From positions 620,001 through 684,000 of the forward strand of contig NZ_JASNRD010000001.1 of NCBI RefSeq assembly GCF_030412015.1: a stretch of 64,000 nt of DNA, read 5' to 3'. A program made the position numbers and the translations under genes. Source of the stretch: Massilia sp. YIM B02763. GTDB taxonomy: Bacteria; Pseudomonadota; Gammaproteobacteria; Burkholderiales; Burkholderiaceae_D. The notes beneath the pieces were generated by a model. That model searched no databases and was not told the origin of the DNA. It worked only from the letters and a program-made list of their open reading frames with translations. Positions 1,393-60,469 of the stretch are shown in pieces (the first letter of the stretch is position 1; every line of letters begins with the position of its first letter).

Positions 1393-1426
1393 TTGTCATC
1401 TTCCTGACATCGCGACGCACTAAGAT
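1393..1426 (+). promoter_or_regulatory. Pho box plus -10 element driving small-RNA candidate A
   Basis: TTGTCAT (1393-1399), four bases, then CTGACAT (1404-1410) form the 7-4-7 direct repeat of a PhoB site. Exactly ten bases later lies TAAGAT (1421-1426), a good -10. This spacing is that of classical PhoB-activated promoters, where the box replaces the -35. The neighbouring upstream gene runs the other way, so this promoter serves the short unit on its right. An imperfect dyad, GACGC...GCGTC (1414-1432), overlaps the -10. Confidence 0.7.
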
Positions 1427-1431
1427 GGCGT

Positions 1432-1502
1432 CACTCTCTTCGTGAGTTTCCTTATCGGATACTTCGTTCATCCGCCTTCCTCCGGGTCGGCGGATTTTTT
1501 TT
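1432..1502 (+). ncRNA. Small-RNA candidate A (Pho-regulated, about 70 nt)
   Basis: The predicted start is about six bases after the -10 at 1421-1426. The end is a Rho-independent terminator: ATCCGCC (1470-1476) pairs with GGCGGAT (1489-1495), with a 12-base loop, followed by a run of eight T. No start codon with a ribosome site or meaningful ORF lies between. The terminator loop carries CCTCC (1479-1483), a sequence able to pair with Shine-Dalgarno motifs. A second copy with the same order of elements lies at 23331-23396; segments shared include CTCTTC.GTAGTT- or GTGAGTTTCC-like stretches, TACTTCGTT or TACGTTGTT, and the CCGCC...GGCGGATTTTTTTT end. No known RNA family was recognised. The insertion sequence begins at the next base, leaving the T-run intact. 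Confidence 0.6.
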
Positions 1503-1525
1503 GGCGCTGTTCGCGTTAGTTATGT
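1503..1525 (+). repeat. Left terminal inverted repeat of the IS element
   Basis: Twenty-three bases beginning GGCGCTGTTCGCGTTAG match the reverse complement of 2552-2574 without mismatch. The left flank is the eight-T target duplication at 1495-1502. Confidence 0.9.
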
Positions 1526-1571
1526 GAACCGAACGCCATCGCTGCGGTCTTAGCCAAGGTCGAGGTAACTC

Positions 1572-2552
1572 ATGGGGACCGCAATGCGCAGCATGGTGTT
1601 CGACGACTTGTTGGCCGTCCTGAAGAACTTGCCGCTACGCTTCGACGATCTGGCGCGGCTACGTCACTGGCTGGCCTCCATCGCGCATCCGGGCGAATGC
1701 CTGGCCCTGATCGAAGGCGCGGCCGGCACGCCTGCTTGTCCCCACTGCGCATGTCTCCGCGTGCACCGCTGCGGCCAGGCCAGCGGCTTGCAACGCTTTC
1801 GTTGTTGCCGCTGCCGGCGCAGCTATAACGCCTTGACGGGAACGCCGCTCGCGCGGCTGCGCAAGAAGGAAAAATGGCTGCCTTATCTGCAGTGCCTGCT
1901 CGAGTCGCGCACGGTACGCGATGCCGCCACGGTTACCGGGGTACACCGCACGACCAGCTTTCGCTGGCGCCATCGTTTCCTGCCGGGGGCCATGCACGAG
2001 CGTCCGGCGGCATTGTCGGCCATCGTCGAGGCCGATGAAACTTATTTGCTCGAATCGCAGAAGGGCTCGCGCCACTTGAATCGGGCGCCGAGGAGACGGG
2101 GCGGCGTGGCACGGCGCCGCGGCATCAACCGCGAGCACGACTGCCTGCTGGTGGCGCGCGACCGTGGCGGTCACACGTTGGATTTTCATACGGGCCGCGG
2201 CGCCGTCACGGCAAGCCAGCTGGCGCGGTGCCTGGGACCGGTCCTCGCCGGTGACGCGCTGCTGATCAGCGATGCGGCGCCCGCTTATCGAACCTTTGCG
2301 GCGAAGGCGGGGTTCAGTCATGAAGTAGTGAACGTGAAAGCGGGAATCCGCGCACGCGGTGCGCTTCACATCCAGAATGTGAACGGTTGGCACAGCCGTT
2401 TCAAGACCTGGTTGCTGCGCTTTCGCGGCGTGGCCAGCCGCTATCTCATCCATTACTCCGGATGGCAGCGCATTCTGGACGACCGGCGCCTGACGACACC
2501 GGTCTTGCTACTGCGCGCGGCACTGCGTTGCCGCCGGTCTGCCGGCATCTAA
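1572..2552 (+). CDS. IS1595 family (ISXO2-like) transposase
   Basis: A 326-residue DDE-type transposase filling the IS element. Residues about 55-85 hold a zinc ribbon (CPHC, then CCRCRR) as in the Zn-ribbon domain preceding ISXO2-like transposases. The catalytic core starts at VEADETYLLESQKG, giving the first acidic residue near position 155. LLISDAAPAYRTF supplies the second Asp, and HIQNVNGWHSRFKTW carries the Asn/His-rich end of the core that replaces the usual Glu in this family. The ATG at 1572 is used; ATGs at 1584 and 1593 are also possible. The frame is intact, so the element may be active. Confidence 0.9.
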   Translation: MGTAMRSMVFDDLLAVLKNLPLRFDDLARLRHWLASIAHPGECLALIEGAAGTPACPHCACLRVHRCGQASGLQRFRCCRCRRSYNALTGTPLARLRKKEKWLPYLQCLLESRTVRDAATVTGVHRTTSFRWRHRFLPGAMHERPAALSAIVEADETYLLESQKGSRHLNRAPRRRGGVARRRGINREHDCLLVARDRGGHTLDFHTGRGAVTASQLARCLGPVLAGDALLISDAAPAYRTFAAKAGFSHEVVNVKAGIRARGALHIQNVNGWHSRFKTWLLRFRGVASRYLIHYSGWQRILDDRRLTTPVLLLRAALRCRRSAGI

Positions 2553-2574
2553 CATAACTAACGCGAACAGCGCC
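2552..2574 (-). repeat. Right terminal inverted repeat of the IS element
   Basis: This is the perfect partner of the left end; the transposase stop codon (2550-2552) touches it. The right flank is the eight-T duplication at 2575-2582. Confidence 0.9.
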
Positions 2575-2732
2575 TTTTTTTTGCCCGTTCGTGGTAACGC
2601 GAGAGGGAGGCGCGCACCGGCCTCCCGCTGCGAAGCAGGATTGGACGGTGGGGCCCTGAAAGGTTGCAGTCGATGGGTGGTCCCGGAGCAAGGACAGGGC
2701 GGACGTGAAGCGGAACGGGCCGTCGCCCGCCG

Positions 2733-3653
2733 TCAGTAGATATCCGGCACGATGATCTCCGGCGGCACCGGCCGGCGCACATAGTCGTCGTGGTACTCGC
2801 GCTCCGGCAGCTGGATCGTCGGCCGGTCGACTTCCTCGTACGGGATCTGCTGCAGCAGGTGGTGGATGCAGTTCAGGCGCGCGCGCTTCTTGTCCACGCC
2901 CTGCACGACCCACCAGCGCGCTTCCGGAATGTGCGTGCGTTCCAGCATGACTTCCTTGGCCTTCGTGTACTCCTCCCAGCGCCGGCGCGACTCCAGGTCC
3001 ATCGGGCTGAGCTTCCACTGCTTGAGCGGGTCGTGGATGCGGGACAGGAAGCGCGCGTTCTGCTCCTCGTCCGAGATCGAGAACCAGTACTTGATCAGCT
3101 GGATGCCCGAGCGCACCAGCATGCGTTCGAACTCGGGCACGGTCTGGAAGAATTCCTCGTACTGGTCGTCCGTGCAGAAGCCCATCACGCGCTCGACGCC
3201 GGCGCGGTTGTACCAGCTGCGGTCGAATAGGACGATCTCGCCGGCCGCCGGCAGGTGCGGGACGTAGCGCTGGAAATACCACTGGGTGCGTTCGCGGTCG
3301 TTCGGCGCCGGCAGCGCCACCACGCGGCACACGCGCGGGTTCAGGCGCTGCACGATGCGCTTGATGGCCCCGCCCTTGCCGGCCGCGTCGCGGCCTTCGA
3401 ACAGGATCACGACCTTGTGGCCCGTGTGCGCGACCCAGTCCTGCAGCTTGACCAGCTCGGCCTGCAGGCGGAACAGCTCGCGGAAGTAATCGCGCCGCGC
3501 GCTGCGCTCGGCCTCGGTCTGGGATTGCGCCGGCAGCAGCGTGTCCGGGTCGAGGTCGCGGTCGTCCAGCTCCAGTTCGAGCTCTTCGTCGTAGCTGTCG
3601 GCGATGTCGAGACGGACGCGCCGGACCAGGTCGGGGTGGTCGGTATTCCTCAT
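2733..3653 (-). CDS. ppk2: Polyphosphate kinase 2
   Basis: A 306-residue cytosolic PPK2 that uses polyphosphate to phosphorylate nucleotides (or the reverse). The Walker A loop GRDAAGKGG (about residue 87), Walker B FDRSWYNRAGVERVMGF and the lid region KYWFSIS are all present, as is DPLKQWKLSPMD, typical of single-domain PPK2 proteins acting on nucleoside diphosphates. The acidic N-terminal tail (ELELELDDRDLD) is common in betaproteobacterial members. The start ATG lies about 30 bases after the predicted transcription start of a Pho-box promoter at 3690-3723, so expression under phosphate starvation is expected. The gene faces the IS element across 150 bp that contain a GGGAGGC...GCCTCCC hairpin but no gene. 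Confidence 0.95.
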   Translation of the reverse strand: MRNTDHPDLVRRVRLDIADSYDEELELELDDRDLDPDTLLPAQSQTEAERSARRDYFRELFRLQAELVKLQDWVAHTGHKVVILFEGRDAAGKGGAIKRIVQRLNPRVCRVVALPAPNDRERTQWYFQRYVPHLPAAGEIVLFDRSWYNRAGVERVMGFCTDDQYEEFFQTVPEFERMLVRSGIQLIKYWFSISDEEQNARFLSRIHDPLKQWKLSPMDLESRRRWEEYTKAKEVMLERTHIPEARWWVVQGVDKKRARLNCIHHLLQQIPYEEVDRPTIQLPEREYHDDYVRRPVPPEIIVPDIY

Positions 3654-3689: not shown

Positions 3690-3723
3690 ACTCTACCCGG
3701 CCCCCATGACAGGGCCATGACCG
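3690..3723 (-). promoter_or_regulatory. Pho box plus -10 for ppk2
   Basis: Read on the minus strand: CGGTCAT (3723-3717), four bases, CTGTCAT (3712-3706), ten bases, TAGAGT (3695-3690). The geometry is identical to the two small-RNA promoters at 1393 and 23291. It ends 37 bases before the ppk2 start codon. Confidence 0.75.
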
Positions 3724-3729
3724 CGCGTG

Positions 3730-4995
3730 TCAGGCCAGGTAGGGTCCCGTGACGAGCGCCACGCGGTCGTCCTCGTCGCGGTTGTCCGTCACGGCCACGT
3801 GAAAGCGCGCGCCGCCCGGCGCCACGCGCACGACGACATGGCCGTCGTGGCTGCGCATGCGGCTGGTCAGGCGGCCGTTGGCGAGCATGTTCTCGCGCAT
3901 CACGGAAGTCGCGAACACGTCGCGCGGCCCCGGGTACAGGCGCTGGCTGAACATGCGCTCGAGCTGCAGCATGTCCGGATGCGCGATGTGCCAGCTCGGT
4001 ACCACCCATACCTGCGGCCGCAGCGCACGCACGACCTCGGCGTCGAGGCCGTCGAACATGCCGTGGTGGTCCGCCGTCGCCACGCTGGCCGGCCCGGCGG
4101 CCTTTGCGGCCGGGCCGAGGATATCGCGCCAGGGTAGCGCGCCGTCTTCCGTGTAGCTGGTCAGGTCCCCCGCCGTGAAATAGGAAAAGCGGCCGTAGCC
4201 GAGGCGGACCGCGATCGAGCACACGTTCTCGTTCGGCCAGTCGGCCCGCGCCAGCGTCGACAGCGGCGGAAAGTGCGCGACCGCCGACTCGCCCTGCCCG
4301 CTCCACACCTCGCCGTTGGCGGCCACGTTGCGGATCTCGAAGGCCGGCGCGCCCGGACGGTGGCCCATGGCGCGCAACTGGGTCGCGCTGCCGACCTTGA
4401 CGCGCTCGACGGCCCGGCCGGCGCGCCGGCGCTCCTGCACGAAGGCGCGGTAGTTGTCGGCGAACGCGCCCTGGATGGGCGCCGGATACGCGTAGTCCGG
4501 ATAGCCGCGGTCGACGACGGTGCCGATCTCCAGCAGCTCGGCCACGTCGGTGACGCCGCTCAGGCGGTACTTGCCGTTGGCCGCGAGCGGCGACGCCGCG
4601 CCGACGTCGCCCGTGTGGTCCGGGTGCACGTGGGTCACGAGCAGGTAGTCCAGGGCAACGAGTCCGGCGCGGCGCAGGTGGCGGCGCGCATAGCGGCCGA
4701 TCCACTCGCCCGCACGCCGGCTGGCATCCGGCCGTGGCGCCACCGAGGTATCGAGGCCGTTGTTCGATGCCCCCGCGTCGATCAGCATGCTGGTCCCGTC
4801 GGGCAGCATCACGAACGTGGCGTTGCCGCGGCCCGTGGCGATGTGGTGGATGTCGAGCCAGCCCGGCTGCCAGGGCGCGAGCGGGCTGCCGGCGCGATCG
4901 GGCAAGGCTTCGTCGGCGGCGGATGCGATGGCGGGCGACGCGGCCAGGGCGAGCATGGCGCGCAGCAGCGCGCGGCGCCGGGGTTGCGCGGGCAT
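3730..4995 (-). CDS. Exported metallo-beta-lactamase-fold hydrolase
   Basis: A 421-residue protein with an N-terminal RRRALLRAML and a hydrophobic stretch ending IASA, so likely exported (twin-arginine-like, but the motif is not perfect). THVHPDHTGD near residue 120 is the HxHxDH zinc-binding signature; the later TAGD, TADHHG and SWHIAHPD supply further metal ligands. The layout resembles ComEC/Rec2-type stand-alone hydrolases rather than true beta-lactamases; the substrate is unknown. The start is uncertain: ATG at 4995 begins MPAQPRRR, and an in-frame TTG lies 21 bases upstream; neither has a strong ribosome site. The gene is downstream of, but 13 bases beyond, the ppk2 promoter and transcribed toward it. 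Confidence 0.8.
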   Translation of the reverse strand: MPAQPRRRALLRAMLALAASPAIASAADEALPDRAGSPLAPWQPGWLDIHHIATGRGNATFVMLPDGTSMLIDAGASNNGLDTSVAPRPDASRRAGEWIGRYARRHLRRAGLVALDYLLVTHVHPDHTGDVGAASPLAANGKYRLSGVTDVAELLEIGTVVDRGYPDYAYPAPIQGAFADNYRAFVQERRRAGRAVERVKVGSATQLRAMGHRPGAPAFEIRNVAANGEVWSGQGESAVAHFPPLSTLARADWPNENVCSIAVRLGYGRFSYFTAGDLTSYTEDGALPWRDILGPAAKAAGPASVATADHHGMFDGLDAEVVRALRPQVWVVPSWHIAHPDMLQLERMFSQRLYPGPRDVFATSVMRENMLANGRLTSRMRSHDGHVVVRVAPGGARFHVAVTDNRDEDDRVALVTGPYLA

Positions 4996-5143
4996 CACGC
5001 GCGCACCATCGAGCAAGCAGGAACGACAAGGCTGGGACAGGAATGCGTCACGATGGGTCCTGAATAACGATCATCCTGCAAGCGTAGCACGCAGGCATGA
5101 CCCGACCGTGAAAAAAGAAAACCAAGCGGAAAAGCCGGGGATG

Positions 5144-21395: not shown

Positions 21396-23291
21396 TTGAA
21401 GAAGATCATCGCCAGCCTCGTCGCGGCCACACTCACCCTGTCCTGCCTCGCGCCGAGCGCCGTCGCGCAGGATTACGCCAAATACAGCCCCGAGGCGATG
21501 GACAAGGAGCTGGCGAAGATCGCCACGTCCCGACTCGGCGTCCTGGTGCCCATGCGCGACAACGTCGGCCTGTCGACCGACATCTACATGCCCAAGGGCG
21601 CCAAGGGCCCGCTGCCCACCATCCTGTGGAAGACGCCGTACAACGAGCACAAGCTCAAGGGCGGCACCTACCGCTACGTGCTCGAATCCGTCAAGCGCGG
21701 CTATGCCTTCATCGTCCAGAACGAACGGGGCCGCTATTTCTCGCAGGGCAAGTGGGAAATCCTGGGCAACCCGCAGACGGACGGCTACGACACGCTGACC
21801 TGGATCGCCGGGCAGCCCTGGTCGAACGGCAAGGTCGGCACGCTGGGCTGCTCGTCCTCGGCCGAATGGCAGCTGGCGCTGGCCGGCATGAACCACCCGG
21901 CGCACGCGGCGATGGTGCCGATGTCGGCCGGCGCCGGCATCGGCAAGGTCGGCCGCTTCCAGGAACAGGGCAACTGGTACACGGGCGGCGTGCCGCGCAA
22001 CCTGTTCTTCGTGTGGCTGTACGGCGTCGACAATCCGCTGCGCGCGGAATTGCCCGCGTCGCTCACGGACGAAAAGCTGCGCGCCCGCATCGAAGCCTAC
22101 AACGACCTCGATCCGAGCAAGCCCAAGGTCGACTGGAACAAGCAGATCAAGCACCTGCCCGTCGACCAGATGCTGACATCGATGGGCGAGCCGCCGGCCA
22201 CCTTCGAGGACTTCATCCACCGCACGCCGGCCGATCCGGCCTGGCGCAAGGGCGGCCTGTACCACGAGGACATGGGCTGGGGCGTGCCCGCCCTGTGGTT
22301 CAACACCTGGTACGACGTGTCGATCGGCCCGAACCTGGAACTGTTCAACGTGGCGCGCGCCGCCAACACGGACAAGGAAGCGAGCGCCAACCAGTACGCC
22401 GTGGTGGCCCCGGTGCCGCACTGCGCCTTCGCGCGCCTCGGTCCCGATACCGTGGTCGGCGAACGCGACATGGGCGACACCAGCTTCGACGTCGACGGCG
22501 CCATCTACGGCTGGTTCGACCGCTGGCTCAAGGGCGACGCCAAGGCCTTCCCCGCCAAGACGCCGCGCGTCCAGTACTACATGATGGGCGAGAACCGCTG
22601 GAAGAGCGCGGCCCAGTGGCCGCCGCAGAATGCCAAGCCGATGCGCCTGTACCTGCGCTCGGGCGGCAAGGCGAACTCGCTGTACGGCGACGGCCGCCTG
22701 CTGCCCGAGGCGGCGCCCGCCGGCGAGGCCGTGGACCGCTACCGCTACGACCCGATGAACCCGGTGCAGACGATCGGCGGCGGCGACTGCTGCAACGGCG
22801 GCGTCGTCGTCCCGGGCGCCTTCGACCAGCGCCCCATCGAGGCGCGCAGCGACGTCCTCGTCTACACCACCGACCCGCTCGACAAGCCGGTCGACGTGGC
22901 CGGCTTCGTCGACGCCGTGCTGAAGGTCTCGTCCAGCGCCAGGGACACGGACTTCGCCGTGAAACTGGTCGACGTCGCACCGGACGGCACCGCCTGGATC
23001 ATCGGCGACACGATCTTCCGCGCCCGCTACCGCGACGGCTACGACAAGCCGGCCCCGATGCAGCCCGGCCAGGTCTACACGATCCGCCCGACCCCGATCA
23101 CGACGGCGACCCGCTTCGGCGCCGGCCACCGCATCCGCGTGGAGGTGACCTCGTCGAACTTCCCGAAATTCGTGCGCAACCTGAACACGGGCGGGCCGAA
23201 CGAGAGCGAAAAGGACGGCATCGTCGCCGACAATGCGATCCACCACGCGGGCGAGGCGCAGAGCTATATCGAATTGCCGGTGCTGCGCTGA
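21396..23291 (+). CDS. Secreted CocE/NonD-family (S15-like) hydrolase
   Basis: A 631-residue alpha/beta hydrolase. The start is TTG at 21396, chosen because CAGGAG ends five bases before it and the signal peptide LKKIIASLVAATLTLSCLA follows at once. The nucleophile elbow GCSSSAEWQ is an S15-type serine motif. VPHCAFARLG likely brings the catalytic His. The C-terminal jellyroll (SDVLVYTTDPLDKPVDVAG onward) is the X-Pro dipeptidyl-peptidase C-domain of the family. Substrates in this family include esters, glutaryl groups and X-Pro peptides; the specificity here is unknown. Its stop codon overlaps the Pho box of the following small-RNA candidate. Confidence 0.85.
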   Translation: MKKIIASLVAATLTLSCLAPSAVAQDYAKYSPEAMDKELAKIATSRLGVLVPMRDNVGLSTDIYMPKGAKGPLPTILWKTPYNEHKLKGGTYRYVLESVKRGYAFIVQNERGRYFSQGKWEILGNPQTDGYDTLTWIAGQPWSNGKVGTLGCSSSAEWQLALAGMNHPAHAAMVPMSAGAGIGKVGRFQEQGNWYTGGVPRNLFFVWLYGVDNPLRAELPASLTDEKLRARIEAYNDLDPSKPKVDWNKQIKHLPVDQMLTSMGEPPATFEDFIHRTPADPAWRKGGLYHEDMGWGVPALWFNTWYDVSIGPNLELFNVARAANTDKEASANQYAVVAPVPHCAFARLGPDTVVGERDMGDTSFDVDGAIYGWFDRWLKGDAKAFPAKTPRVQYYMMGENRWKSAAQWPPQNAKPMRLYLRSGGKANSLYGDGRLLPEAAPAGEAVDRYRYDPMNPVQTIGGGDCCNGGVVVPGAFDQRPIEARSDVLVYTTDPLDKPVDVAGFVDAVLKVSSSARDTDFAVKLVDVAPDGTAWIIGDTIFRARYRDGYDKPAPMQPGQVYTIRPTPITTATRFGAGHRIRVEVTSSNFPKFVRNLNTGGPNESEKDGIVADNAIHHAGEAQSYIELPVLR

Positions 23292-23324
23292 CGTCATGCT
23301 CCTGACATGAAGACGGCGTATCGT
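23291..23324 (+). promoter_or_regulatory. Pho box plus -10 driving small-RNA candidate B
   Basis: ACGTCAT (23291-23297), four bases, CTGACAT (23302-23308), ten bases, TATCGT (23319-23324). The arrangement is identical to the site at 1393. The first base is the last base of the upstream stop codon. A perfect dyad GACGGCG...CGCCGTC (23312-23332) spans the -10 and predicted start. Confidence 0.7.
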
Positions 23325-23330
23325 TGCGCC

Positions 23331-23396
23331 GTCTCTTCCGTAGTTCCACGCGAATCTACGTTGTTCCGCCGGCCGCAAGACCGGCGGATTTTTTTT
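23331..23396 (+). ncRNA. Small-RNA candidate B (Pho-regulated, about 66 nt)
   Basis: A paralogue of candidate A at 1432-1502. It follows the Pho-type promoter and ends in CCGCCGG (23366-23372), an 8-base loop, CCGGCGG (23381-23387), A and eight T. The internal segment from CTCTTCC through TACGTTGTTCCGCC parallels candidate A. No ORF with a start signal is present. The downstream gene gcd is on the other strand, ending 13 bases away, so this RNA could also touch the gcd 3' end. An alternative reading is a leaderless 3' extension of the upstream hydrolase message, but the promoter conservation argues for an independent unit. Confidence 0.6.
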
Positions 23397-57469: not shown

Positions 57470-60469
57470 TCAGAACGTCATGCGCACGCCGGCGCGGTAG
57501 GTACGGCCGATGGCATCGTACACGGCCGGGTTCAGCGCCAGGCTCAGGTTCGTCTGCGGCACCAGCACCGGATCGCGGTCGGCCAGGTTGTCGACCTTGA
57601 AGTAGGCCGTGACCTGCTTCGAGACGTTGTACGTGGCCCCGAAGTCGATATACACGGCGCCCGGCATGTGGTTGTCGTAGATCGTCGGGTGCGCCGCCGT
57701 CGGCAGCGGGCAGTTGGTCCGGCACTCGATGTATTCGTTATTGAATACGCCGGCGCCGATCCAGCGCTCGCTCAGCGTCACGCCCAGCTTGCCCTGCAGC
57801 AGGCCATCCCAGGACTGCGACACCAGCGCCTTCCACTTCGGCGTCGCGCCCGTCATGTTGCCGGCGCCTTCGCTCGGCGTGGTGCCCGGCACGCCCGGAT
57901 CGGAGATCGAGTGGATGGTGCGCGTGGCCAGGCCGCGCAGCGTCACGGCGCCGGGCAGGCCGAAGTCGCCCATGTTCAGCCGGTAGGCCGTCTCGAAGTC
58001 GACGCCGCGGGTGTGCAGCGAGGCGAAATTGAAGCTCTGCGCCAGCACGTAGTTCGTCCCCGCCGGCCCGTTGATCGACACGGAATTGCAGACCTCCTGG
58101 TTGCCCGCGTAGCACAGGTCGACTTCCTGCTGCGGGTTCAGGGAGCTGATCACGTTCTTGACCTTGATGTCGAAGTAGTCGACGGAGAAGTTGAAGTTGC
58201 GCGCCCAGCTCGGCTGGCTCAGGATGATGCCGAACGAGTTGTTGCGGGCGACTTCCGGCTTCAGGTTCGGATTGCCGACGTTGCGCTGCTGGATCTAGAT
58301 CGACTGGCCCTGGTTGTTGTTGACGGCCTGGTTGGTGACGGTCATGGCCGCGTACAGCTCGGACAGGTTGGGCGCGCGCACGTCCTTCGAGCTCACCGCG
58401 CGCAGGCGGATGCCGTCCAGCGGCGTCTTCCACGTCGCGCCGATCTTCCAGGCGCTGGCCTTGCCGGCCGTGCTGTATTTTTCCTCGCGGTCGGCGAGGT
58501 TCAGGTTGGCCTCGCCCCAGGTATCCGACTTCAGGAACGGCACGTTGAACTCGACGTAGGCCTCGCGCACGTTGAAGCTGCCCTTGCCGTTGTGGTAGTT
58601 GCCCGCGAACCAGTTGTCGCCCGTCCGGGACAGCGTCGGGTCGGCCGGATAGCTGGCCGAGTACGGCGACTCGTAGGCCTCGCCCGCGCCGTAGGGGTCG
58701 CCATACACCGCGTATTTCTCGCGCCGGTATTCGGCGCCGAAGGCCATGGAGACGGGACCGGCCCAGCCCTTCCAGACTTCGCCGTTGATATTGACGCTGG
58801 CGACGTCCTGGCTGGAATCCGTGTGCTGCATGGGACCGTTTTCCGGCGCGATGTAGTTCCAGCCCGCCAGGTTGATGGGGACGTCGCCCAGGATGTTGAT
58901 CGGCTGGCAGCCGGCGGCGCGCGCCGCGGCGCTGCGGCAGACGACCTGGCCGCTGGCCGGGTCGCGCACGGCGTCGATGGCGAAGTTGTAGCGAGGGTTG
59001 AGCGTGATGTCCTTCACGTGGATGACGGTGGTGTTCTCGCCGTGCTCGATGTAGGCGTCGTAGCGCCAGTTCCTGCCGAACAGGCCGAACTGGCCGTCGG
59101 CGCCGATCACGAAGCGGCGCTGGGTGCGGGTCGGGTGCACGTTGATGTCGGCCGGGAACTGGGCGTTGGCCGTACCGACCGGCATCGCGCCGCTCGGATA
59201 GCCCGCCAGGCAGGGCGCGACGAGCGAAGCCGGCAGGTAGGCGTTGTCGCAGCGGATCGACAGGTTGCCCTGCTTGGCGGCGCCCGGATTCGGCTGGAAC
59301 ACGGACTTCACCTGCGCCCAGTTACCCGTGAAATAGATCTCGTTGTCCGCGTCGAGGTCCCAGGAGATGCGGGTATAGGCCACCTGGCGCTTGAAGTTCA
59401 TCGCCAGGTTGGTGCCGTTGCCGACGCTGCCCGAGCGGTCGCCGCCGACGCAGAAGTTGCCGACGCAATCGGTGCCGTACTCGAACGGGTACGGCGTGCC
59501 GCCCGGACCGAACGCCGTGCCGCGCAGCGGACCGCCCGTGATCAACCCGTATTTCGCGTACTGGATGTGCTGGGCATTGTGGATGTACTTGTAGCGCGGC
59601 GCGCCGGCCGCCTGCATCGCCGGCGTCGATTCCTGCAGCGCCGGGTTGTCGTACCACGAGCGGCCGCCCGCGTTGACCTGGCCGAAGCGCGGCGCGTCGA
59701 TGCCTTCGTGCTTGGTGAACTCGCCGCTGGCCGTCACGTGCAGGCGGTCGTTCAGGAACGCCTTGCCCCACGCCGCCTGCAGCGTGCCGTTCTTGTCGTC
59801 GCTGTACTTGGTCATGCCCCCTTCGACGTTGGCCTTGAAGCCGGTGAACTTCTTGTCCGTGATGAAGTTGACGACGCCGCCGATGGCGTCCGACCCGTAG
59901 GAGGCCGAAGCGCCGCCGGTGACGACGTCGACGCGCTTGACGAGCAGTTGCGGGAACTGGCTGACGTCCGTCACGCCGGTGACGTTGGCGCCCACCACGC
60001 GCTGGCCGTCCAGCAGCGTCAGCGTGCGCAGCGTGCCGAGGCCACGCAGCGACAGCGAGGACAGGCCCTGGATGCCGCTCGAGGTGCTGAAGGTATTCGT
60101 GGTGCGCCCCGTGCTGCCCTGCAGCGCGGGCAGTTCGGTAAGGGTGTCGAACAGGTTCGGCTTGGCCGCCTTTTCGATGTCGGCCGTGGACAGCGTGGTG
60201 GTCGGCGTGGGCTGGTTGAAGCCGCGCGTGGCGATGCGCGAGCCGGACACGACGACGGTGCTGACACCGTTGGCCGCCGTCGCGGCAGCAGGTGCGGCAG
60301 GCGCGGCGGTCGGCGCGGAAGCGGGCGGCGCGGCATCGGTGGCGGCCGCCGCGTCCGGCGGGGTTTGCTGGACTTGCCGGGCTTCCTGCGATTGGGCAGG
60401 CATGGCGAGCATGCCGCAGGCGCTGGCCACGGCAAGGTGAACCAGCGTCTTCTGGAATGGCGTTTGCAT
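57470..60469 (-). pseudogene. TonB-dependent receptor interrupted by an in-frame amber codon
   Basis: A 999-codon outer-membrane receptor, start at 60469 with GGAG. Signal peptide ends SQE; a Pro/Ala-rich linker; plug motifs VSGSRIATRGFNQPTPTT, LSSLSLRGLGTLRTLTLLDGQRV, VDVVTGGASASYGSDAIGGVVNFIT. The frame meets TAG at 58297-58295 (codon 725) and then continues without shift as IQQRNVGNPNLKPEVA, to the last strand RMTF. One C-to-T change in CAG would explain it. As read, the barrel is truncated and non-functional unless the amber is suppressed or is an error. This large class transports oligosaccharides, matching the downstream permease and glycosidases. Confidence 0.85.

Follow-up and report, generated by a model that had tools for sequence, protein, structure and literature searches.

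The genomes of Burkholderia and Herbaspirillum carry double-hairpin RNAs in multiple copies, and overproduction of one of them slows growth, according to the accounts consulted. The Burkholderia RNAs (ncS03, ncS05, ncS27, ncS62 and bdhR1) and the Rfam family RF02278, multi-copy and known from Herbaspirillum in the excerpt consulted (PMC7011215), have two hairpins and dispersed copies. In the part of the Burkholderia report considered here, the RNAs are 57-92 nt long and their 5' CU-rich stretch is complementary to ribosome-binding sites; overexpression of ncS27 slows growth, and expression of its CU-rich part in reverse complement has the opposite effect (PMC5688073). The same part states that the driver of small-RNA accumulation in B. 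cenocepacia is unknown, names no regulator of the double-hairpin RNAs, and reports that three of four of them share an upstream motif (PMC5688073, Fig. S3).

S17 of Bordetella pertussis is a betaproteobacterial, Hfq-dependent RNA. Its 5' end (Site 1) brings about repression of a target, as supported by compensating mutations; in the sections considered S17 is likened to bdhR1 by its authors and is not similarly toxic in E. coli (PMC11722255). In the NmsR sibling RNAs of Neisseria meningitidis, according to the same part of the Burkholderia report, CU-rich stretches that complement ribosome-binding sites are left unpaired (PMC5688073). Small RNAs that act on phoB appear in the portion consulted of another report (PMC12506140). 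No description of PhoB control of RF02278-type RNAs was found in searches of open-licence literature on PhoB, small RNAs and the Oxalobacteraceae/Burkholderiales.

Two elements in Massilia sp. YIM B02763, here called A and B, share with the Burkholderia RNAs and RF02278 the two hairpins, the dispersed copies and the CU-rich 5' stretch. They would also resemble S17 as betaproteobacterial, Hfq-dependent RNAs acting through the 5' end, and NmsR in their unpaired CU-rich stretches. They differ from the Burkholderia RNAs as described there, with no regulator named, in having a PhoB-type promoter. They also differ from S17, the short form of which is cut by RNase E from a longer transcript and is tied to the Bvg state, not to phosphate, in the account consulted. 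The NmsR genes are in tandem, whereas A and B lie 22 kb apart, and the likeness to NmsR is drawn from its description.

Layout of the two elements

Both elements lie on the plus strand of the window, the whole stretch of 64,000 nucleotides that was analyzed. The initial annotation had placed at each site a 7-4-7 direct repeat with a -10 hexamer 10 nt further on, and a terminator that ends in GGCGGA and eight T, all of which were read directly from the sequence. The Pho box of A, TTGTCAT-cttc-CTGACAT (1393-1410, with TTGTCAT at 1393-1399 and CTGACAT at 1404-1410; box score 20.1), is followed after 10 nt by the -10 hexamer TAAGAT (1421-1426). The predicted RNA of A, about 70 nt long (1433-1502), has a putative start 7 nt 3' of the -10 and consists of the 5' single strand ACUCUCUUCG, hairpin 1 (1441-1466, from the predicted fold) and an intrinsic terminator (1470-1502, from sequence and fold) with its T8 at 1495-1502. 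The Pho box of B, ACGTCAT-gctc-CTGACAT (23291-23308, with ACGTCAT at 23291-23297 and CTGACAT at 23302-23308; box score 17.1), likewise stands 10 nt from its -10 hexamer, TATCGT (23319-23324). The RNA of B, predicted from a full-length RF02278 alignment, the body model R2 described below and the fold, has 66 nt (23331-23396) from a putative start and comprises the 5' strand GUCUCUUCC, hairpin 1 (23339-23360, predicted fold) and an intrinsic terminator (23365-23396, sequence and fold) with T8 at 23389-23396. In both terminators a GC-rich hairpin is followed by GGCGGA and T8, and the proposal of two similar RNAs of about 70 nt agrees with these predictions.

No credible open reading frame was seen in A or B among frames of at least 60 aa, in agreement with the initial reading. 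The minus-strand frame across A has coding-like third-position GC only past its first ~150 codons, and the long plus-strand frame beginning in B is antisense to the PQQ dehydrogenase gene. Two other features that had been pointed out were rejected as traits of the family. A dyad at the -10 covers 5 bp in A and 8 bp in B, but it spans only 2-5 bp in the promoters of 22 relatives; the 5-bp dyad of A is equalled by 19% of random sequences. The CCUCC in the terminator loop of A, previously suggested as able to pair with Shine-Dalgarno sequences, is real but is absent from the other Massilia copies folded; activity is more likely to reside in the conserved 5' GUCUCY-type strand than in this loop, for which it is improbable.

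PhoB-type promoters

The textbook Pho box and -10 were used to choose pstS promoter sites for comparison. A search for pstS gave 40 matches in 24 of the 31 genomes searched, and the 30 loci that were fetched yielded 26 distinct promoter sites. At each locus the upstream site closest to the textbook box and -10 was taken, so the resulting matrix is drawn somewhat towards the textbook box. The pstS gene of the Massilia genome itself, which scores above its cut-off (G000:C27:30187-31113), has the promoter CTGTCAT-AAAG-CCGTCAT-N10-TACACT, and A and B match this geometry, whose spacing had been noted as that of PhoB-activated promoters. In the same genome PhoB is best matched at C27:25730-26392, 3.8 kb from pstS, with 292 bits, just under the curated cut-off of 296.2.

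Both strands of the window, 127,932 positions in all, were scored with the pstS matrix. The region upstream of ppk2 ranked first (29.2), A second (22.6) and B third (18.4). In 200 dinucleotide shuffles a mean of 0.01 sites per window scored at least 18.3, the level of B, compared with these three observed. The boxes of A and B have CTGACAT where CTGTCAT is expected, and both -10 scores are weak. The ppk2 site (CGGTCAT-ggcc-CTGTCAT-N10-TAGAGT, 3690-3723, minus strand), the top site of the window, served as an internal comparison; judged by its function, ppk2 is plausibly a Pho gene. The pstS and ppk2 promoters thus have the same 7-4-7 box, 10-nt interval and -10 hexamer as A and B but differ in having protein genes downstream, where A and B have predicted RNAs.

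Two further sites are recorded here. A gene at 3730-5016, of the metallo-beta-lactamase fold, has the fourth-best Pho-like site (17.2) upstream of it, at 5081-5114 (minus strand). In the relative G019, the region upstream of ppk2 (L075:1538-1646, minus strand) has a Pho box and then a terminator-like hairpin, a possible attenuator.

Relation to RF02278

At Rfam's own thresholds, tRNA alone was reported in the window. No described RNA family had been recognized in the elements. Their layout is that of RF02278 and the double-hairpin RNAs, although A (13.7 bits) and B (25.7 bits) do not reach the RF02278 gathering score of 50 bits. B aligns over the whole model below threshold, and the idea that A and B are unlike any described family was rejected on this layout, together with matches above and below threshold elsewhere.

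When 18 loci were compared with all of Rfam, RF02278 was the sole family above threshold, its matches including L074 of the same genome and the Pho-box locus L060 (52.6 bits); eight Pho-class loci in that scan (L044, L048, L051, L054, L055, L061, L064 and L079) had no RF02278 match at E<=1. Another 20 Pho-box loci were scanned, five of which scored at least 50 bits (L178, 56.0; L174, 53.7; L170, 52.5; L179, 51.6; L165, 50.0) and four of which matched below threshold (L164, L186, L166 and L193); the remaining 11, all from the group g74 (Herbaspirillum), had no match at E<=0.5. Six Pho-box loci in all reach the RF02278 threshold, and they come from g76 (Collimonas) and from another genus, g63; most of the copies in Herbaspirillum and Massilia gave no match. 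Among the 150 of 294 candidates scored in the Massilia genome itself, two RF02278 loci were above threshold and seven more had E<=6.3e-4, and neither A nor B was one of these. The family is wider than was initially envisaged, and besides A and B the genome has RF02278 matches of this quality at nine or more places.

A body-only covariance model, R2, was built from 15 non-Pho members (alignment A6) and contained no Pho members. In the window R2 scored highest at B, with 46.7 bits, and second at A, with 28.8; the next place had 11 bits. The score of A was left out as evidence because a bare terminator used as a control, L029, reaches 33.1 bits. Among the 16 control loci, L014, L015, L017 and perhaps L040 are, or appear to be, members, and L029, L032, L126 and L037 are fair controls. 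Most Massilia Pho copies scored 19-37 bits with R2, as against 57-67 bits for the Collimonas copies. Judged from sequence, the homology of the RNA body to RF02278 appears good for B and Collimonas; for A and many other copies the kinship is indirect and is drawn from layout. A and B differ from RF02278 in scoring below its threshold and, together with many relatives in Collimonas, Herbaspirillum and Massilia, in having PhoB-type promoters. The two are most readily placed in a divergent, PhoB-wired branch of the double-hairpin RNAs.

Some observations concern the genome and the other double-hairpin genes. Non-Pho copies in several genera (L063, L067, L070, L072, L082 and others) have an upstream motif of approximately AATAAAGCAGACAT before the -10, and often a GTGAATATC-like sequence further upstream, possibly for a second regulator. 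Double-hairpin genes also come in pairs, spaced closely (about 150-410 bp) in L103, L094, L067 and, in the Massilia genome itself, at C67:165520-165740, and more loosely (1.2 and 5.5 kb) in L090 and L104. Within the window, ARAGORN called a tRNA with a two-base anticodon at 60201-60279 (plus strand), which is without Rfam support and is probably false.

Distribution in relatives

The initial annotation had made its proposal depend on presence of the element in related genomes, and DNA, covariance-model and pattern searches all gave matches there. By DNA search of 120 relatives, the genome itself included (E<=0.01), A was matched in 12 genomes and B in 18. In many of these cases just the terminator matched; several loci have the whole element with a Pho box.

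A covariance model that included the promoter, R1, was made from nine copies and gave a match at E<=1 in 215 of the 294 family genomes, many of them weak or confined to the terminator. The strong matches show two promoter classes, Pho-type and non-Pho, over similar RNAs. After two duplicates (L090) and one partial match (L108, plus strand) were removed from 80 matches, 77 were scored with the promoter matrix. The scores split: 32 were at least 16.7 with the exact geometry and the others at most 10.9, a split biased towards the Pho box because R1 contained the box. Two of the 32, L075 (a ppk2 promoter) and L112 (no convincing RNA), were not counted as small RNAs. The two pattern searches and the loci L014 and L015, described next, are less subject to the bias of R1.

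A pattern of promoter and 5' seed, which made no demand on hairpins, gave 61 matches in 59 of the 294 family genomes, and the reversed control gave none. Counted by hand, genomes with a match were concentrated in g74 (Herbaspirillum, 25/26), g76 (Collimonas, 14/15) and g1 (Massilia, 9/27), followed by g88 (5/25), g63 (2/5) and g6 (2/26), with one genome each in g5 and g80. Thirty of the 61 matches were fetched; 29 run into two predicted hairpins and a U-run, and in the thirtieth the U-run is interrupted. In the Massilia genome itself the pattern matches B; A falls outside it because its seed is ACUCUC.

A stricter pattern gave 32 matches in a collection of 84,980 species, where chance matches were roughly estimated at about 15. 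In 19 of the 32 the pattern is followed by two hairpins and a U-run, and these belong to Herbaspirillum (8), Collimonas (7) and Massilia (4) and to no other genus. In the remaining 13 (from one Janthinobacterium, a Variovorax, a Comamonadaceae bin, a Pseudomonadota bin and remoter organisms) no convincing RNA follows.

The loci L014 and L015 were found through the 3' part of A only, the match covering the terminator in L014 and the terminator with the end of hairpin 1 in L015, and their Pho boxes score 28.6 and 25.8. The 3' half of A is 83% identical to the G059 and G019 copies over 53 nt (blastn, 1e-7). This 3'-half similarity and the promoter of A link it with the Massilia ortholog group. 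No ortholog of B was recognized among the relatives searched. What was proposed as a small family of elements 22 kb apart is broad and recurs in Collimonas, Herbaspirillum and other Massilia.

Predicted fold and conservation

All 34 chosen Pho-class RNAs, which are all distinct and include A and B, fold into two hairpins, the second being an intrinsic terminator. The seed is paired in four of the 34 predicted folds (G012, G027, L180 and L199). The CU-rich 5' strands of A (ACUCUCUUCG) and B (GUCUCUUCC) are unpaired in the predicted folds; the canonical seed is GUCUCCUCC. In a stem alignment of 75 matches, fitted to the model structure and mixing both promoter classes, 96.6% of cells are paired and 14 of 15 pairs have changed on both sides, figures that far exceed those of shuffled and slid controls. 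These two-sided changes, on an alignment of that kind, agree with the compensatory changes in the stems that the initial annotation had named as support.

The RNA body is more conserved than its flanks in most ortholog sets. Among five Massilia orthologs, identity is 0.97 in the body, 0.78 upstream, 0.72 downstream, 0.73 in the spacer, 0.96 in the box and 1.0 in the -10. The corresponding values for body, upstream and downstream are 0.80, 0.72 and 0.62 in eight Massilia orthologs, 0.86, 0.76 and 0.58 in Collimonas (13), and 0.93, 0.69 and 0.72 in Herbaspirillum (9). In two further g74 sets (n=6, 0.87, 0.60 and 0.84; n=4, 0.84, 0.73 and 0.87) the downstream flank is about as conserved as the body.

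Genomic neighborhood

A is situated between a divergent gene, encoding GH81 C-terminal and discoidin-type domains, and ppk2, the polyphosphate kinase 2 gene (2733-3653, minus strand; PF03976, 5.7e-110), which is convergent with A and separated from it by an insertion sequence. The frame of the divergent neighbor turns coding-like only beyond A. In G006 a similar RNA faces ppk2 directly. B is located between an S15-type peptidase gene and the convergent PQQ dehydrogenase gene, 12 nt away, and its Pho box overlaps the stop codon of the gene upstream by a single base. The neighbors vary between species groups, which argues for a role in trans.

The insertion sequence, an IS1595-type element (1503-2574), is bounded by perfect terminal repeats of 23 bp and has entered A at its U-tract (window 1495-2582). 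The terminator of A survives the insertion because the 8-bp target duplication is the T8 itself. The sole other copy found in the genome (at most one mismatch in the 16-bp end; C11:86198-87271) is also at a terminator U-tract, with TTTTTCAT duplicated, and similar ends adjoin T-runs in L019, L020, L022 and L023. The IS1595-type element may target intrinsic terminators; a limited search of the open-licence literature found nothing on such targeting.

Discussion

A and B are probably genes for trans-acting RNAs of 66-70 nt that are activated by PhoB, belong to a divergent branch of the double-hairpin RNAs, and cover ribosome-binding sites with their 5' strand. This reading draws on the promoter geometry, conservation in relatives, the predicted fold and the relation to RF02278, which is good for B and Collimonas and indirect for A. 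PhoB, phosphorylated at low phosphate, would bind the box and activate transcription. An RNA of 66-70 nt would then be made and ended by the terminator, with a single-stranded CU-rich 5' end, hairpin 1, and the terminator as hairpin 2. By analogy with S17 and ncS27, the probable role of the 5' strand is to pair with the purine-rich ribosome-binding sites of a number of mRNAs, which would block their translation. The core shared by A and B, UCUCUUC, is complementary to GAAGAGA, and the canonical seed to GGAGGAGAC; this difference suggests other targets. For A and B themselves, PhoB binding, the phosphate response, the use of Hfq, the targets and the direction of regulation are putative.

The possibility was considered that the RNAs are controlled by PhoB but titrate a protein or RNA, as a sponge for sibling double-hairpin RNAs or for a chaperone, instead of pairing with ribosome-binding sites. 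The seeds of A and B are unlike the canonical GUCUCCUCC, and with at least nine further RF02278 matches in the genome (E<=6.3e-4) a Pho-induced sibling could compete with the others. The 5' strand, however, is strongly kept in orthologs, and in the sections of the S17 report considered, the 5' strand of that related RNA represses its target directly, with compensating mutations (PMC11722255); titration is accordingly judged unlikely. A different role would be that the sites respond to PhoB while the transcripts are mere by-products, promoter and terminator serving to insulate neighboring genes, the peptidase and PQQ dehydrogenase genes at B and ppk2 at A. The position of B, from the upstream stop codon to 12 nt short of the convergent gene, would suit such a role, as would the like Pho box and terminator-like sequence that precede ppk2 in G019 (L075). 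Similar RNAs nevertheless adjoin different neighbors and show paired stem changes, and the 19 matches in named genera that have a terminator also have the seed and two hairpins in common, so that insulation is rather improbable.

Finally, the elements could be functionless terminators with a Pho-like sequence upstream by chance. With R2, the model of the body, bare terminators can score as much as 33 bits, and 13 of the 32 pattern matches in the species collection are without a convincing RNA. These points are set against the expectation of 0.01 sites per window at the score of B and the 61 promoter and seed matches compared with none in the reversed control, and coincidence is considered very improbable. 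The preferred reading remains that of PhoB-activated RNAs acting in trans through their 5' strand.

RF02278 is already known, and its Pho-wired branch was not found described in the literature searched. A broader scenario, to which we give an even chance, is that one interchangeable double-hairpin body is placed under various promoters and that PhoB captured copies in the Oxalobacteraceae, which made a brake on the translation of selected mRNAs during phosphate starvation, with the seeds diversifying in Massilia to suit new targets. Capture by PhoB in Collimonas, Herbaspirillum and Massilia perhaps took place more than once. A conserved PhoB-type promoter on one branch of the double-hairpin RNAs supplies a named signal, a regulator and an easily testable trigger. 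Under the broader scenario these RNAs would be an RNA arm of the Pho regulon so far undescribed in betaproteobacteria, and control of this branch by PhoB would give the phosphate response of the Oxalobacteraceae a post-transcriptional arm.
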